Shown here: positions 26,107-34,978 of the stretch, in pieces
Layout: every line of letters begins with the position of its first letter
How positions within the stretch are numbered: position 1 is the stretch's first letter
Notes under the pieces: generated by a model
Told to the model about the DNA's origin: nothing
The model's database searches: none
The model's input: only the letters and a program-made list of their open reading frames with translations
Made by a program: the position numbers and the translations under genes
Assembly: GCA_022841625.1 (NCBI GenBank)
Contig: JALHRD010000039.1
Location: forward strand, 1-39,781
Length of the DNA: 39,781 bases
DNA from: Xanthobacteraceae bacterium
Lineage (GTDB): Bacteria > Pseudomonadota > Alphaproteobacteria > Rhizobiales > Xanthobacteraceae
Direction of reading: 5' to 3'

Positions 26107-26135
26107 TTGATTGTGACGGCGCGAATCCTTATTTG
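26107..26135 (+). promoter_or_regulatory. Promoter of the first ornithine decarboxylase leader
   Basis: TTGATT (26107-26112), a 17-bp spacer and TATTTG (26130-26135) form a sigma-70-type promoter whose start would fall at the first base of the conserved leader RNA. The second leader has the same arrangement (TTGACA, 16 bp, TATTGC), which supports both assignments. Confidence 0.55.
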
Positions 26136-26137
26136 CG

Positions 26138-26560
26138 CCGTTGCCCAAATTCGCACGTGCCTGTGGCCGTGTGTCGGTCGGTGAGCATCCGGACAAGAGG
26201 CCGGACCGCTGCCAGGGAAGCGAACTAGCTTCCTTACCATGCGACCGGCAGCCGGAGGCGAAACCGGCGCACCCTGCGCTCAACAGGGGACGCGGCTTAA
26301 AGCAACGACGGAGCGGGCTTCTCTGGTCTCGTCGGCCCTCCAAAGGTCGACACCGCAGAGGCTTGTCCATCTTGCCGGCCGTGCGGAACGGGTCTCCCGC
26401 TCCAAACCAAGGCAGCATCTCGGGTGAAAAACCCGGCGCGCTTGTCTGTGTCTCCATCGCACGGCAAGGGCTCCGCGAGTTCACCCGCTGACGCCGGGCG
26501 CGCGCTTGCGTGCGCCTGAACTTTAACCTGGGCCGCGAGGCCCCTTGGCTTTGGTGAGGA
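26138..26560 (+). ncRNA. speF-type leader RNA, copy 1
   Basis: A roughly 420-nt non-coding 5' leader upstream of ornithine decarboxylase. It begins with GTTGCCCAAATTCGCACGTG. Its core at 26249-26320 differs from the second leader at only three of 72 positions and includes the hairpin CCGGAGGCGAAACCGG. GGAAGC/GCTTCC (26216-26233) is replaced by GGAAGAGA/TCTCTTCC in copy 2, a paired change that argues for RNA structure. GGACAAG (26191-26197) can pair at long range with CTTGTCC (26362-26368) in both copies. Gene context and size match the alphaproteobacterial speF motif known from comparative genomics. Its ligand, if any, is unknown to me. Confidence 0.85.
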
Positions 26561-26567
26561 GAGCGCC

Positions 26568-27710
26568 ATGACTCAGCGCATCCGCGACTTTCTGCGCAAC
26601 CGCCGCGACGCCGGCCACGACGAGGCTCCGTGCCTGGTCGTCGACCTTGAGGTCGTGCGCGACAATTACACGACCTTCGCAAAGGCCCTGCCCGATACGC
26701 GCGTGTTCTACGCCGTGAAGGCCAACCCTGCGCCTGAGGTCCTGGCGCTGCTGGCGAAGCTCGGCTCGTGCTTCGACACCGCCTCGGTTCCAGAGATCGA
26801 GATGGTGCTGGCGACCGGCTGCACCGCCGACCGCATCTCCTATGGCAACACCATCAAGAAGGAGCGCGACATCGCGCGCGCCTTTGCGCTCGGCGTGCGG
26901 CTGTATGCCGTCGATTGCAAGGCCGAGGTAGAGAAGGTCGCCCGCGCGGCGCCCGGCAGCAAGATATTCTGCCGCATCCTGTCCGATTGCGTCGGGGCGG
27001 AATGGCCGCTGTCGCGCAAATTCGGCTGCGAGCCAGCCATGGCCGCCGACGTGCTGGAGCATGCCCACCGGCTCGGGCTCGAAGCGCATGGCGTGTCGTT
27101 CCACGTCGGCTCGCAGCAGCGCAACACCAATGCCTGGGACCGCGCTTTGACGCAGGCCGCCGCCGTTTTCCGCGAATGCGGCGAGCGCGGCATCAACCTC
27201 GCCATGGTCAATCTCGGCGGCGGTTTCCCGACCAAATATCTCAAAAACGTGCCGACGGTGAAGACCTACGGCGCGGCGATCTTCCGTGCCCTGCGCAAGC
27301 ATTTCGGCAACCGCATCCCGGAGACCATCATCGAGCCGGGCCGCGGCATGGTCGGCAATGCCGGCATGATCGAGACCGAGGTCGTGCTGATCTCCAAGAA
27401 GTCCGAGGAGGACGACGTGCGCTGGGTCTATCTCGACATCGGCAAATTCGGCGGTCTCGCCGAAACCATGGACGAGTCGATCCGCTACCCGATCCGTACG
27501 CCGCGGGACGGCGATGCGCTGGCGCCGTGCGTGCTGGCGGGGCCGACCTGCGACTCGGCCGACGTGCTGTATGAAAAGCAGCCCTACCCGCTACCGGTCA
27601 GCCTGGAGATCGGCGACAAGGTGCTGATCGAAGGCACCGGCGCCTACACCGCGACATACTCAGCGGTCGCCTTCAACGGCTTCGCGCCGTTGCAGACGTT
27701 CCATATCTGA
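26568..27710 (+). CDS. odc: Ornithine/lysine decarboxylase, alanine-racemase fold (first copy)
   Basis: A 380-residue type III PLP decarboxylase expected to convert ornithine to putrescine. The PLP Lys is K51 in FYAVKANPAP. The cofactor phosphate and ring motifs are HVGSQQ, NLGGGFP and EPGRGMVGNAG. GPTCDSADVLYE supplies the Cys/Asp pair from the partner subunit of the dimeric active site, typical of eukaryotic-type ornithine decarboxylase rather than diaminopimelate decarboxylase. GAGGAG lies 7 nt before the ATG. Some family members also accept lysine, so cadaverine formation is possible. A GNAT gene starts 9 bp later, then homospermidine synthase, so this is the first enzyme of a putrescine-homospermidine operon under the speF-type leader. 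Confidence 0.94.
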   Translation: MTQRIRDFLRNRRDAGHDEAPCLVVDLEVVRDNYTTFAKALPDTRVFYAVKANPAPEVLALLAKLGSCFDTASVPEIEMVLATGCTADRISYGNTIKKERDIARAFALGVRLYAVDCKAEVEKVARAAPGSKIFCRILSDCVGAEWPLSRKFGCEPAMAADVLEHAHRLGLEAHGVSFHVGSQQRNTNAWDRALTQAAAVFRECGERGINLAMVNLGGGFPTKYLKNVPTVKTYGAAIFRALRKHFGNRIPETIIEPGRGMVGNAGMIETEVVLISKKSEEDDVRWVYLDIGKFGGLAETMDESIRYPIRTPRDGDALAPCVLAGPTCDSADVLYEKQPYPLPVSLEIGDKVLIEGTGAYTATYSAVAFNGFAPLQTFHI

Positions 27711-27719
27711 GGCCCCGAC

Positions 27720-28283
27720 GTGGCGACGATTCGCAAAGAGCAGCGGCGTGACAGCGCTGCGCGCGAGGCGCTGCTCGACCTTTGCCTGGGCGATGCGCGC
27801 TTCCAGAAGACCTCCGAACGGCTGCGCGACGGCCGCCTGCCGGCGCATGGCTTGGCGTTCGTGGCCACCGAGCGCGACCGGGTGATCGGCACCGTCCGGC
27901 TGTGGAACGTCGCCGCCGGGCCGGCGCGGCCAGCGCTGCTACTCGGCCCGCTTGCCGTCCATGCGGACTATCGCGGTCGCGGCATGGGCGGCGCGCTGAT
28001 GCGGCACGCGATTGCGGCGGCGCGTCAGGGCGGCCACCGCGCGGTGCTGCTGGTCGGCGATGCGGCCTATTACCAACGCTTCGGCTTCTCGACCGAGGCG
28101 ACCGGCAGCCTGTGGCTGCCCGGACGCTACGACGCCGACCGATTCCTGGCGCTCGAACTCGCGCCCGGCGCGCTTGCGGGCGCACACGGCTTGGTCAGCG
28201 CGACCGGCCGGCTCAAGCCGGCGCTATCCACACCCGTCAACCGTTCTCCACAGCGCGCCGCCCCGGTCGCACACGCGGCGTGA
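27720..28283 (+). CDS. GNAT-family N-acetyltransferase (YhbS-like)
   Basis: A 187-residue acetyltransferase with GTG start. Motif A, the acetyl-CoA pyrophosphate loop, is LAVHADYRGRGMGGALMRHA (RGRGMG). Motif B follows as RAVLLVGDAAYYQRFGFS, typical of YhbS-like proteins. It sits 9 bp after ornithine decarboxylase and 27 bp before homospermidine synthase, so co-transcription is likely and a polyamine or a precursor is a reasonable substrate guess. Many YhbS-like proteins sit in other contexts, so this is inference. The C-terminal 25 residues (STPVNRSPQRAAPVAHAA) look disordered. Confidence 0.88.
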   Translation: MATIRKEQRRDSAAREALLDLCLGDARFQKTSERLRDGRLPAHGLAFVATERDRVIGTVRLWNVAAGPARPALLLGPLAVHADYRGRGMGGALMRHAIAAARQGGHRAVLLVGDAAYYQRFGFSTEATGSLWLPGRYDADRFLALELAPGALAGAHGLVSATGRLKPALSTPVNRSPQRAAPVAHAA

Positions 28284-28310
28284 CGCCCCTCTTGCCTCGG
28301 AGAAACCGAT

Positions 28311-29762
28311 ATGAACGCACTAACCGGCATGAACGATAATCATCTGCTGCATGCGCAGTTTGCCGGGCCGATCGTGATGATCGGCTTCGGCTCCATTGGC
28401 CGCGGCGTGTTGCCGCTGCTTGAGCGTCACATCGGTTTCGACCGCGCGAAATTCGTGGTCATCGACCCGGTCGACACCGACCGTGCGCTGCTCGACGAGC
28501 GCAAGCTCCGCTTCGAGCAGGTCGCGATCACCCGGGACAATTACCGCCAGCTGCTGACCCCGCTGCTGACCGGCGGTCCCGGCCGCGGCATGGTCATCAA
28601 TCTCTCGGTCGACACCTCCTCGGCCGACCTGATGGACTTCTGCAAGGACATCGACGCCTTCTATATCGATACCGTGTGCGAGCCCTGGCCCGGCCTCTAT
28701 ACCAATGCCAAGGCCTCGATCTCGCAGCGGTCGAACTATGCCCTGCGCGAGGGCGTGCTCGATGTGCGCCGCCGCCGGCCGGGCGGGGTGACGGCGGTGA
28801 GCTGCTGTGGCGCCAATCCCGGTATGGTGTCCTGGTTGGTCAAGCAGGCGCTGCTCGACATTGCCCGCGACACCAATGTCTCCTTCACCGAACCGACCGA
28901 CCGCGACGGCTGGGCCCGGCTGATGCAGCGCGTTGGCGTCAAGGGCATTCACATCGCCGAGCGCGATACCCAGCGCGCCCGCGACCCCAAGCCGAAGGAC
29001 ATGTTCGTCAACACCTGGTCGGTCGAAGGATTTTGCTCCGAGGGCCTGCAGCCGGCCGAGCTGGGCTGGGGCACGCATGAGAAGCACATGCCGGCGAACG
29101 GCCATCGCCACGACTTCGGCTGCGAAGCCGCGATCTACCTGACCCGGCCGGGCGCCGGCACCCGCGTGCGATCCTGGACGCCGACCGCGCAAGCCCAGCA
29201 CGGCTTCCTGGTGACCCATAACGAGTCGATCTCGATCGCCGACTACTTCACGCTGCGCGAGGCCGGCAAGGCGGTCTATCGGCCGACCTGCCACTACGCC
29301 TACCACCCGTGCAACGACGCGGTGCTGTCGCTGCACGAAATGGGCGGCGCGGCCTGGAAGCGTCAGCCTGACTGGAAGATCCTGGACGAAAACGAGATCG
29401 TCGACGGCATCGACGAATTGGGCGTCTTGCTCTACGGCCACGCCAAGAACGCCTATTGGTACGGCTCGCAGCTATCGATCGAAGAGACCCGGCGGCTCGC
29501 GCCCTACCAAAACGCCACCGGCCTGCAGGTGACCTCGGCGGTGCTGGCCGGCGTCGTGTGGATGCTCGAGAACCCCGAGCGCGGCGTGATCGAGGCCGAC
29601 GAGATGGACTTCCGCCGCTGCCTCGCAATCCAGCGGCCCTATCTCGGCCCGGTCACCGGCCACTATACCGACTGGACACCGCTGGTCGGGCGCGGCGGCT
29701 TGTTCCCCGAAGACGTCGACGCGGGCGATCCCTGGCAGTTCAAGAACGTGCTGGTGGTCTGA
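28311..29762 (+). CDS. hss: Homospermidine synthase
   Basis: A 483-residue NAD-dependent enzyme that makes sym-homospermidine from two putrescines. The N-terminal Rossmann domain has IVMIGFGSIGRGVLPLLERH. The family blocks CEPWPGLYTNAKAS, VSCCGANPGMVSWLVKQALL, NESISIADYFTLR and TCHYAYHPCNDAVLSLHEM match the bacterial enzyme characterised from Blastochloris viridis, and the length is normal. GGAGA precedes the ATG. It lies in an operon with ornithine decarboxylase upstream; a second leader and second decarboxylase follow, so the substrate supply is doubly encoded. Homospermidine is the signature polyamine of many alphaproteobacteria. Confidence 0.96.
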   Translation: MNALTGMNDNHLLHAQFAGPIVMIGFGSIGRGVLPLLERHIGFDRAKFVVIDPVDTDRALLDERKLRFEQVAITRDNYRQLLTPLLTGGPGRGMVINLSVDTSSADLMDFCKDIDAFYIDTVCEPWPGLYTNAKASISQRSNYALREGVLDVRRRRPGGVTAVSCCGANPGMVSWLVKQALLDIARDTNVSFTEPTDRDGWARLMQRVGVKGIHIAERDTQRARDPKPKDMFVNTWSVEGFCSEGLQPAELGWGTHEKHMPANGHRHDFGCEAAIYLTRPGAGTRVRSWTPTAQAQHGFLVTHNESISIADYFTLREAGKAVYRPTCHYAYHPCNDAVLSLHEMGGAAWKRQPDWKILDENEIVDGIDELGVLLYGHAKNAYWYGSQLSIEETRRLAPYQNATGLQVTSAVLAGVVWMLENPERGVIEADEMDFRRCLAIQRPYLGPVTGHYTDWTPLVGRGGLFPEDVDAGDPWQFKNVLVV

Positions 29763-29901
29763 CGCGCGCCGCGCTGTGTCGCGCCGCCAAATGGCAGACG
29801 ACGGAGCGCGCATGCCGGCGCGCTGACACAATCATTTCAAATTGGTAAACGCGCCGCCACATCTATCCGTGGTGTATCGCGCATGCGCGACACCAAAATT
29901 G

Positions 29902-29929
29902 TTGACAGCGAGACTGATTCGACTATTGC
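29902..29929 (+). promoter_or_regulatory. Promoter of the second ornithine decarboxylase leader
   Basis: A consensus TTGACA (29902-29907), 16-bp spacer and TATTGC (29924-29929) lie a few bases before the conserved leader start. This makes the second decarboxylase an independent transcription unit after the homospermidine synthase gene. Confidence 0.65.
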
Positions 29930-29933
29930 GTGG

Positions 29934-30360
29934 AGTTGCCCAATTTCGCACGTGCCTGTGGCCGCGTGTCGATCGGTGGGGTCCGGACAAGAGGCCGGAC
30001 AGCCGCCTACGGAAGAGAGCTTCTCTTCCTTGCTAGGTGTCGAGGATGGTGCGTGTCCGGCATGGACACAAATCCAAACTCGGTGCCGACGTGATCGACA
30101 GCCGGAGGCGAAACCGGCGCACCCCGCGCTCAACGGGGGACGCGGCTTAAAGCAACGACGGAACGGGCTTTTTTGGTAACGCCGGCGCGAATGCCGGACT
30201 GACTAAAAAGGCTTGTCCTTCTTTGCCAGCAGTGCGGAACGGGTTCTTCCCTCATCCGGACCAAGGCAGCCATCGCCGTGATGCCCCAAACTCGCACGTG
30301 GCGAGCCAGCGGCCTCACAGGAGGTTCACCTGACGGCAAAGCCGTCGCACCGGACTAAGG
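29934..30360 (+). ncRNA. speF-type leader RNA, copy 2
   Basis: A second roughly 425-nt leader, starting GTTGCCCAATTTCGCACGTG. The conserved core is 30099-30170. The GGAAGAGA/TCTCTTCC hairpin at 30011-30029 is the structural equivalent of copy 1's shorter stem. GGACAAG (29985-29991) and CTTGTCC (30212-30218) repeat the long-range pairing. Compared with copy 1 it has about 60 extra bases between the hairpin and the core, themselves able to fold. Near its 3' end CCCAAACTCGCACGTGG (from about 30286) partly repeats the leader's own first bases; copy 1 lacks this. Confidence 0.85.
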
Positions 30361-30373
30361 GAACAAGATTGAG

Positions 30374-31504
30374 ATGACCCCACGCATTCGCGAATTTCTC
30401 AAGCGCCGTACCGATGAAGGACCTTGCCTCGTGCTCGACCTCGATGTCGTCCGCGAGAATTATCATTCCTTCGCCAAAGCGCTACCTGACAGCAAAGTCT
30501 ATTACGCCATCAAGGCCAACCCGGCGCCGGAGATCCTCAAGCTCCTGGTCGAACTCGGCGCCTGTTTCGATGTCGCCTCGGTCGGCGAAACCGAGGCCGT
30601 GCTCGCCGCCGGCGCCACCCCCGACCGCATCTCCTACGGCAACACCGTCAAGAAGGAGAGCGACATCGCCAAGGCCTATCGGCTCGGTGTCACCCTGTTC
30701 GCGATCGATTGCGAAGCCGAGGCTGAAAAGGTGGCGCGCGCCGCGCCGGGCTCGCGGGTGATCTGCCGCATTCACTGCGACAATGCCGGCGCCGACTGGC
30801 CGCTGTCGCGCAAGTTCGGCTGCGAACCGGCTTACGCCACCGATATCCTGGAATTCTCCCACCGGCTGGGGCTGGTGCCGTTCGGCGTTTCCTTCCATGT
30901 CGGCTCCCAGCAGAACAATGTCGAAGCCTGGGACCGCGCGCTGGCCTCGACCGCCGCGATCTTCCGCACCTGTGCCGAGCGCGGCATCAACCTGTCGACG
31001 GTCAATCTCGGCGGCGGCTTCCCGGCGAAATATCTCCGCAAGACCCCGAAGCTCGAAACTTATGGCAAGGCGATTTTCCGTTCGCTGCGCAAGCATTTCG
31101 GCAATGCGATCCCGAACACCATCATGGAGCCGGGCCGCGGCCTGGTCGGCAATGCCGGCATGATCGAAACCGAAGTGGTGTTGATCGCGCGCCGCAATCC
31201 CGAGGACGAATTGCGCTGGGTCTATCTCGATATCGGCAAGTTCCACGGCCTGGCCGAAACCATCGACGAATCGATTCGCTATCCGATCAAGACCCAGAAG
31301 GACCGCGACGAGATGGCGCCCTGCGTGCTGGCCGGGCCGACCTGCGATTCGGTCGACGTGTTGTACGAAAAGACCCCCTACCCGCTGCCGGTGTCGCTCG
31401 CGATCGGCGACAAGCTGCTGATCGAAGCGACCGGCGCCTACACCACGACCTATTCGTCGATCGGCTTCAACGGCTTTCCGCCGCTGCGGCAATATGTGAT
31501 CTGA
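30374..31504 (+). CDS. odc: Ornithine/lysine decarboxylase, alanine-racemase fold (second copy)
   Basis: A 376-residue paralogue of the first decarboxylase, colinear throughout. The PLP Lys is K47 in YYAIKANPAP. HVGSQQ, NLGGGFP, EPGRGLVGNAG and GPTCDSVDVLYE are intact, so it should be active. AAGGGA lies about 10 nt before the ATG. It has its own promoter and speF-type leader. Retaining two decarboxylases with separate leaders around one homospermidine synthase suggests different substrate preference (ornithine against lysine) or different regulation. The sequence alone does not say which copy is which. Confidence 0.94.
   Translation: MTPRIREFLKRRTDEGPCLVLDLDVVRENYHSFAKALPDSKVYYAIKANPAPEILKLLVELGACFDVASVGETEAVLAAGATPDRISYGNTVKKESDIAKAYRLGVTLFAIDCEAEAEKVARAAPGSRVICRIHCDNAGADWPLSRKFGCEPAYATDILEFSHRLGLVPFGVSFHVGSQQNNVEAWDRALASTAAIFRTCAERGINLSTVNLGGGFPAKYLRKTPKLETYGKAIFRSLRKHFGNAIPNTIMEPGRGLVGNAGMIETEVVLIARRNPEDELRWVYLDIGKFHGLAETIDESIRYPIKTQKDRDEMAPCVLAGPTCDSVDVLYEKTPYPLPVSLAIGDKLLIEATGAYTTTYSSIGFNGFPPLRQYVI

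Positions 31505-34901: not shown

Positions 34902-34978
<77 letters not shown>

Follow-up and report, generated by a model that had tools for sequence, protein, structure and literature searches.

Two diverged ar45–speF leaders around a homospermidine synthase gene in a Xanthobacteraceae bacterium: linkage, a covarying pseudoknot, and predicted alternative folds

The stretch of DNA analyzed here, referred to below as the window, comprises 39,781 nucleotides (nt) from a Xanthobacteraceae bacterium (contig JALHRD010000039.1), and contains two RNA leaders, each located upstream of an ornithine decarboxylase (ODC) gene and composed of sequences related to two Rfam families, ar45 and speF. Between positions 26107 and 31504, the order is promoter, leader 1, odc1, a GNAT acetyltransferase gene, the homospermidine synthase gene hss, promoter, leader 2, and odc2, all on the + strand. 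ODC1 (26568–27710) shows the Orn/DAP/Arg decarboxylase fold, domains of this type were matched by both window decarboxylases, and the best solved-structure relatives of ODC2 (30374–31504) are lysine/ornithine decarboxylases. Neither protein reached a curated NCBIfam cut-off, and the label "ODC" therefore rests on fold, relatives, and context. The GNAT acetyltransferase gene (27720–28283), absent from an earlier note on this DNA, lies between odc1 and hss, giving the order odc1-gnat-hss; the best PDB match of hss (28311–29762) is 4plp (E = 7.5e-237). In other alphaproteobacteria, odc is known to be located close to hss in some cases, with the hss gene of Sinorhizobium meliloti standing alone (PMC13293326; the literature cited here by PMC number is represented by excerpts).

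Each ODC gene is preceded by a leader of about the 420 nt that the earlier note had proposed: leader 1 (26143–26567, 425 nt) extends from a GCCC motif to the ODC1 start codon at 26568, and leader 2 (29938–30373, 436 nt) likewise begins at GCCC and stops short of the ODC2 start codon at 30374. Similarly placed promoter-like hexamers at the leader starts were also confirmed, namely a sigma70-like TTGATT-17-TATTTG sequence (26107–26135) ending 7 nt before the GCCC of leader 1, and a promoter-like TTGACA-16-TATTGC sequence (29902–29929) ending 8 nt before that of leader 2. The promoter-hexamer test was passed by 111 of 117 leaders, as compared with 19 of 465 windows further upstream. Pairwise alignment reproduced the 72-nt core, which is located at 26249–26320 in leader 1 and differs at three positions from its leader 2 counterpart. 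A local hairpin, GGAAGC/GCTTCC in one copy and GGAAGAGA/TCTCTTCC in the other, is present as described, but its arm varies in length and sequence among relatives. Separately, the 3′ part of leader 2 (30281–30358) was seen by eye to contain CCCCAAACTCGCACGTGG, which resembles the leader's own 5′ start and begins an ATG frame of 25 codons that stops ahead of ODC2; the loci L002 and L003 appear by eye to lack it.

The 5′ part of each leader corresponds to the separately catalogued Rfam family ar45 (RF02347), with scores of 56.2 bits in leader 1 (26143–26322) and 61.2 bits in leader 2 (29938–30172) against a cut-off of 40, and with both matches spanning the full model from GCCC to the U-tract. The speF model (RF00518) follows after 7 nt in each leader (Cmscan), at 26330–26482 (34.3 bits) and 30180–30315 (35.4 bits), both below the cut-off of 37; the E-values in a whole-genome search were nevertheless significant (1.2e-6 and 5.8e-7, respectively), and with an ODC gene downstream of each, the speF-type leaders claimed from the sequence held up. 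The covariance-model search suggested for them thus returned both leaders, yet under the cut-off and over their 3′ part only.

A search of 199 genomes from the order returned 74 ar45 matches with E ≤ 0.001 (the cut-off being exceeded in 64 genomes) and 87 speF matches spread over 86 genomes. A speF match was located 6–12 nt 3′ of ar45 on the same strand in 71 of the 74 cases, the spacing being exactly 8 nt in 54, and was not located there in three; this suggests that ar45 and speF are one element rather than two. Conversely, 16 speF matches were unaccompanied by an ar45 match, and the strict ar45 filter explains at least some of these: one is leader 2, which Cmscan does match to ar45, and two others (L073 and L077) carry long insertions in the ar45 part. 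An ODC-like open reading frame (ORF) was found within 900 nt of all 125 distinct leaders parsed, 116 of which were aligned, the exclusions being leaders in which no 5′ end was found or more than five mismatches occurred there, those with no GUGCGG-like end or with an N, and duplicates. Leader 2 was the query whose best matches supplied many of the loci, and its type is accordingly over-represented. The overlap of ar45 and speF is itself already known, since an extended speF element beginning near the transcription start was described by Corbino et al. (PMC1273637) and a 2008 survey of S. meliloti entered smrC45 (speF) as a single locus (PMC2573895); the linkage counts and the structure described below were not found in the excerpts from the literature.

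The border between the two families is spanned by a pseudoknot. Between CGAC and GGGC lies a gap that the ar45 model leaves unpaired; its sequence covaries with that of the apical loop in speF: in leader 1, GGA (26310–26312) pairs with UCC (26366–26368; overall 26310–26368), and in leader 2, GGA (30160–30162) pairs with UCC (30216–30218; overall 30160–30218), while the pair classes found across relatives are GGU/ACC, GUA/UAC, GGA/UCC, GAA/UUC, and others. Over the four pairs, 87.4% of the cells in the 116 aligned leaders are paired, as compared with 45–71% with a shifted partner. The second pair (columns 454/526) is GC in 66 leaders, UA in 36, AU in nine, and GU in three, being unpaired in none of 114, and on the ODC tree it underwent at least nine changes of pair state (5′ column, seven changes; 3′ column, eight). 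At least three contiguous Watson-Crick pairs are formed in 55 of the 59 distinct combinations (shuffled mean, 32.7; maximum in 5000 shuffles, 44). Neither the percentage paired nor the covariation score was reached by any of 500 shuffles; the number of double-change pairs and the number of pair types were reached by 493 and 236 of the 500, respectively, as shuffles of this kind over few pairs permit.

Sixty loci were added later, of which 57 were parsed (L217, L220, and L222 were not). These 57 further leaders of the window's family, judged row by row rather than by a looser test of three or more pairs in any register with GU allowed, keep the pattern, with L173 breaking the third pair and all nine GUA rows having UAC in the loop; 42 of them belong to one class (GGA/UCC), and the set thus adds less than its number implies. 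The GAU class (L140, L143, L146, and L150) has no Watson-Crick triplet partner in the loop. Overall, the pseudoknot between the gap before GGGC and the speF loop is strongly supported, and constitutes a covarying structure within a gene leader, as looked for in RNAs of the riboswitch type. The evidence comes from the 116 aligned leaders; the two diverged window copies, which had been put forward as a natural covariation pair, give little by themselves. No description of the pseudoknot was found in excerpts of the open-licence literature.

A different long-range pairing, GGACAAG with CTTGTCC, had been proposed as conserved. Both strings do occur in both copies (26191–26197 and 26362–26368 in leader 1; 29985–29991 and 30212–30218 in leader 2), but as a conserved helix this pairing was rejected, being lineage-linked and hardly covarying. 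Of the 75 leaders whose ar45 part contains ACAAG, 59 also have CTTGT in the speF loop, as do seven of the 43 lacking ACAAG; the other 16 leaders have ACAAG without CTTGT, and in three of these (L023, L035, and L114) ACAAG lies by eye outside the ar45 hairpin. Paired cells amount to 78.7%, as compared with 41–57% when slid and 75.6 in shuffles, three of the pairs are broken in 28–32 of 96 rows, and the covariation score (0.082 vs. 0.074 in shuffles) was reached by 43 of 500 shuffles. The pairing may exist in the window's lineage without being a conserved contact. As a separate observation, the ar45 hairpin loop ACAAGAGG (26193–26200 and 29987–29994) is retained across many lineages despite changes in its stem, and may therefore be a contact site of its own.

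Folding predicted two mutually exclusive states for the leaders. In the first, the helix P1a pairs the 5′ GCCC with GGGC immediately before the U-tract (leader 1: 26143–26318, with 26143–26146 pairing with 26315–26318 and followed by a degenerate U-tract, TTCTCT, at 26319–26324; leader 2: 29938–30174, with 29938–29941 pairing with 30165–30168 and followed by U6 at 30169–30174). When the RNA was folded only to the U-tract, P1a had a median probability of 0.998 and exceeded 0.5 in 87% of the 116 leaders; when it was folded to GUGCGG together with the speF part, P1a exceeded 0.5 in none. Random control truncations closed the 5′ end in four of 320 cases. In the second state, P0, the 5′ strand CGCAC is held by GUGCG as an alternative to P1 (leader 1: 26152–26385, with 26152–26156 pairing with 26381–26385; leader 2: 29947–30236, with 29947–29951 pairing with 30232–30236). 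As the 3′ end was moved on, P1a was lost once the speF loop emerged (26366 in leader 1 and 30216 in leader 2), dipping in leader 1 also at 3′ ends 26334–26346, after which GUGCGG held CGCAC with a probability of 0.96–0.998. An exact P0 match is present in 110 of the 116 aligned leaders. The folding values are equilibrium predictions without pseudoknots, not kinetics; within these limits, a helix next to a U-tract and its exclusion by an alternative fold, as would be looked for in an intrinsic attenuator, are predicted, with a degenerate U-tract in leader 1 and without the P1b helix of the Rfam model. A covarying stem at the U-tract, sought between the two window copies, was rejected, with an in-register C-C mismatch in leader 1 and a double change in none of eight pairs.

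Further 3′, masking of the Shine-Dalgarno sequence is suggested by folding and pairing comparisons, although the exact helix is not settled. In leader 1, a possible masking helix (26402–26554) would pair CCAAACCAAGGC (26402–26413) with GCUUUGG (26548–26554). RNAalifold on the 3′ leaders of 12 ODC1-type sequences, hand-picked from 29, paired a conserved CCAAnCCAAGG with UUUGG before the Shine-Dalgarno sequence; the CCAA motif pattern is loose, being matched by 68 of 124 shuffles. A leader's own pairing was better than swapped pairings in 86 of 123 leaders (p = 1.7e-6 with relatedness ignored, as in the 2 × 2 tables), and a CGGAT, CCGGA, or CCGGC tail before the Shine-Dalgarno sequence accompanies a CCGG head in 20 of 24 cases and a CCAA head in 13 of 92. 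For leader 2, a possible ODC2-type masking helix (30254–30354) would pair AUCCGG (30254–30259) with CCGGA (30350–30354). The ODC2-type 3′ leader also has a hairpin of its own, GUGAUG with CAUCAC, showing double changes. A hairpin with a TCCA loop occurs in 91 of 124 leaders (8.8 expected), and in the stricter form with a CUCCA or UUCCA loop in 78 of 125; the CUCCA-loop hairpin of leader 1 (26446–26464) was not found in leader 2. A role of the CUCCA loop as an anti-Shine-Dalgarno sequence was not supported (own vs. swapped, p = 0.094). Three leaders (L084, L085, and L091) combine an ODC1-clade decarboxylase with an ODC2-type 3′ leader of the CCGG form, a pattern suggestive of leader parts exchangeable between the paralogues.

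That two copies in one locus are unusual, as the earlier note had assumed, agrees with a sample of 149 genomes of the family, in which ODC2 was matched at E ≤ 1e-90 in 145 genomes and at 80% identity or more in 22, and two ODCs were found in 12. speF was present in 144 of the 149, twice in 11, and a second copy was also seen in genome G304. Both leaders around odc1-gnat-hss-odc2 were found in seven loci (the window, L002, L003, and L156–L159). In a quick tree with a midpoint root, ODC2 forms one clade of 20 rows (SH-aLRT, 100) that is not nested within ODC1, so that a recent duplication within the family could not be demonstrated as its origin.

The leaders of this clade have diverged in sequence from the others. 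The U-tract is intact in 20 of 20 ODC2 rows, with a [CU]UCCA-loop hairpin called in one of 20; the corresponding counts are 21 and 19 of 29 for the ODC1-type rows of the family, and 66 and 58 of 76 for the remaining rows, which include some of the window's family. Among ODC1-type leaders of genomes having two leaders, the U-tract is broken in six of 11 (the window, L002, L003, L156, L158, and L165) and intact in L157, L159, L162, L163, and L168, as compared with broken U-tracts in six of 73 such leaders in other genomes; Fisher's test, run with 6/74, gave p = 0.0007, a value that is too small because the rows are related. Overall, loss of the U-tract did not differ significantly between ODC1-type and ODC2-type leaders (12/85 vs. 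0/21, p = 0.12). Later leaders were called ODC1-type from an ODC identity below 80% and not from the tree. Leader 2 has kept its U6 tract, whereas leader 1 combines a degenerate U-tract with a CUCCA hairpin, and the two window copies therefore probably lean on different outputs. The proposal of two regulators tuned differently is to this extent supported, at the level of sequence divergence between the outputs.

In the model that we favor, each leader would be one cis-acting RNA switch acting on its ODC gene and built from the ar45 and speF pieces. Transcription would start at or near GCCC. With the polymerase at the U-tract, the 5′ GCCC would already be paired with the GGGC just before it, and the ar45 part may then terminate and be released as a short RNA. 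If the polymerase instead continues, the speF part would fold, the first pairing would be lost, and GUGCGG would take the 5′ strand CGCAC; in this readthrough fold, the speF stem would enclose the U-tract, and the pseudoknot would form between the speF loop and the gap before GGGC. Further 3′, a helix could cover the Shine-Dalgarno region as a second control point. We hold this two-state switch with two control points to be the probable arrangement, with a confidence that is modest; that transcription terminates here in this organism, that the ribosome site is masked, and that polyamine supply is the signal are inferences. Homospermidine would be a fair first candidate for that signal, since hss shares the locus and the compound is absent from the list of those tested by Corbino et al. 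in the excerpt concerned (PMC1273637). In a fuller version of the model, which we put forward tentatively and consider rather unlikely as a whole, ar45 and speF would together form one switch with two outputs, belonging to a class not yet recognised and sensing an end product among the polyamines, for example homospermidine; ar45 would be its terminated product, and the outputs of the duplicated switch would be split in odc1-gnat-hss-odc2 loci, with termination going to ODC2 and masking to ODC1.

Several observations weigh against the model. We know of no ligand or regulator for speF or ar45. Since the speF strands are transcribed after the U-tract, they cannot be what prevents termination at that point, and something earlier must decide readthrough. 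Of the helices of the first state, P1a and P1c were predicted by folding, but P1b in the Rfam register had a median probability of 0.002 and exceeded 0.5 in one of 116 leaders; in the minimum-energy fold of leader 1, the P1b region adopts another register that takes up the pseudoknot strand, so that the pseudoknot and the first state would be mutually exclusive there. With the 3′ end at 26414 and 26418, the longest lengths tried, the probability of P0 in leader 1 drops to 0.13 and 0.51. Both P1a and P0 are nearly invariant, and their covariation is thin, with double changes in L152 for P1a and, as the only one, in L127 for P0. The fourth pseudoknot pair is formed in 58 and unpaired in 50 of 108 leaders. 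Leader 1 lacks a clean U-tract, and U-tract loss is also seen in the single-leader genomes mentioned above (6/73). On the side of masking, RNAalifold did not choose the CCGG helix in 20 ODC2-type leaders, and a nearby CUCC stretch was instead paired with the Shine-Dalgarno sequence.

The published RNA data add to these points. For SmrC45 of S. meliloti, the 5′ end was mapped and the 3′ end was assigned, by assumption, to a U-run, giving 181 nt (PMC2780559), while smrC45/SpeF is elsewhere tabulated at 3105298–3105445, or 148 nt (PMC7143759). The latter value equals the length of the ar45 model, and only it fits an end at the U-tract; 181 nt does not. Separate ar45 transcripts have been reported in Bartonella (PMC7717549) and Methylosinus (PMC12403871). 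SmrC45 also binds Hfq (PMC2848018) and is tabulated as a trans-acting small RNA (sRNA; PMC7143759), neither of which the switch model needs, and six pathway metabolites did not bind to an Agrobacterium tumefaciens construct (PMC1273637). Confidence in the switch model is reduced by the sizing of SmrC45 at 181 nt, by the failure to predict P1b, and by the drop of P0 at the longest leader 1 lengths. The tested A. tumefaciens construct began at −400 (PMC1273637). GCCC lies 407–433 nt before the start codon, and hence outside such a construct, in the five leaders measured of a family (f24) whose high ar45 scores suggest that it is the family of Agrobacterium. The construct may thus have had no 5′ strand, judging from these leaders rather than from A. 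tumefaciens itself, and the earlier binding tests could have failed for this reason.

Both the Hfq binding and the lack of a ligand among the six compounds would be expected if the leader were controlled by a protein or by Hfq, with no metabolite-binding riboswitch and with the conserved single strands serving as protein sites. This explanation is a possible one, though we doubt it: the strong sequence conservation and the pseudoknot resemble an aptamer, homospermidine was not among the listed ligands, and the construct may, as inferred from the f24 leaders, have had no 5′ strand.

Less probable, and in our judgment distinctly unlikely, is the explanation that ar45 is an independent gene for a trans-acting sRNA lying by chance upstream of a separate speF leader. 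The distance between the two, which is exactly 8 nt for 54 of the 74 ar45 matches, the covariation of the pseudoknot across the border, and the promoter-like hexamers that precede ar45 in 111 of 117 leaders, in a scan that covered the ar45 start and the windows further upstream, all argue against chance adjacency, whereas the Rfam type of ar45, which is sRNA, agrees with the Hfq binding, the tabulation as a trans-sRNA, and the 181-nt size in favoring it.

Leader-peptide attenuation operates in gammaproteobacterial speF, and a similar mechanism here could call upon a 116-amino-acid ORF with a TTG start (26141–26491) that spans much of leader 1, and upon an ATG present in 107 of 117 leaders. However, an ATG ORF of at least eight codons behind a Shine-Dalgarno-like 4-mer was found in just 13 of 117 leaders (GTG and TTG starts not counted), and pairwise alignment showed the two window leaders to be out of frame by one base in the ar45 part; a leader-peptide attenuator was therefore rejected for want of a conserved translated ORF, and we regard it as very improbable. 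Least probable of all is that leader 2 arose by recent duplication and is itself functionless. The small number of differences between the cores, three in 72 positions, speaks for this idea; against it, seven loci keep both leaders, the ODC2 clade has a support of 100 over 20 rows, and a covarying hairpin is peculiar to the 3′ leader of the ODC2 type.

The cis-acting switch that we favor resembles, and differs from, several known systems. It shares with the speF leader the position upstream of an alphaproteobacterial ODC gene and the order of its parts, namely a conserved beginning close to where transcription starts, then a stem into which several stems are inserted, and finally a bulged stem-loop containing about 80 conserved nt (PMC1273637); the window copies differ in scoring 34–35 bits, below the cut-off of 37, and neither the pseudoknot nor the P1/P0 alternative was found in the text of that paper as excerpted. 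Both copies exceed the ar45 cut-off over the full model, but ar45/SmrC45 is filed as an sRNA, without known function (PMC7717549; PMC12403871), and here is the 5′ half of an ODC leader. As in the case of rnTrpL of S. meliloti, a short RNA would arise from transcription attenuation of a biosynthetic operon (PMC7143759), although no leader peptide is evident in the window leaders. The SAM-II riboswitch (metA element) likewise has a promoter a few nt upstream, a pseudoknot, and a metabolic gene downstream (PMC1273637), but the speF/ar45 element has no known ligand and is far larger.

The speF/ar45 family is thus a known one, to which the counts supporting its unity, the pseudoknot, the predicted alternative states, and the putative split of outputs in two-copy loci are additions. 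To our knowledge, speF has remained an orphan leader from 2005 onward, and no paper with a homospermidine riboswitch in its title was listed in a search of the open-licence literature. One RNA with a defined pseudoknot, exclusive predicted states, and a common start may enable the use of full-length constructs and precise mutants in finding the signal, and a locus with two diverged copies offers a natural comparison of the two outputs.

In genome G200, which already has an ODC1 and an ODC2 leader, another leader-like match (L161) is located at a contig end. Another genome, G227, has two leaders near contig ends (L169 and L204), one with an intact and the other with a broken U-tract, and no ODC at E = 1e-90. 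Outside the polyamine genes, the window contains a tRNA gene at 34902–34975 (RF00005, 70 bits).

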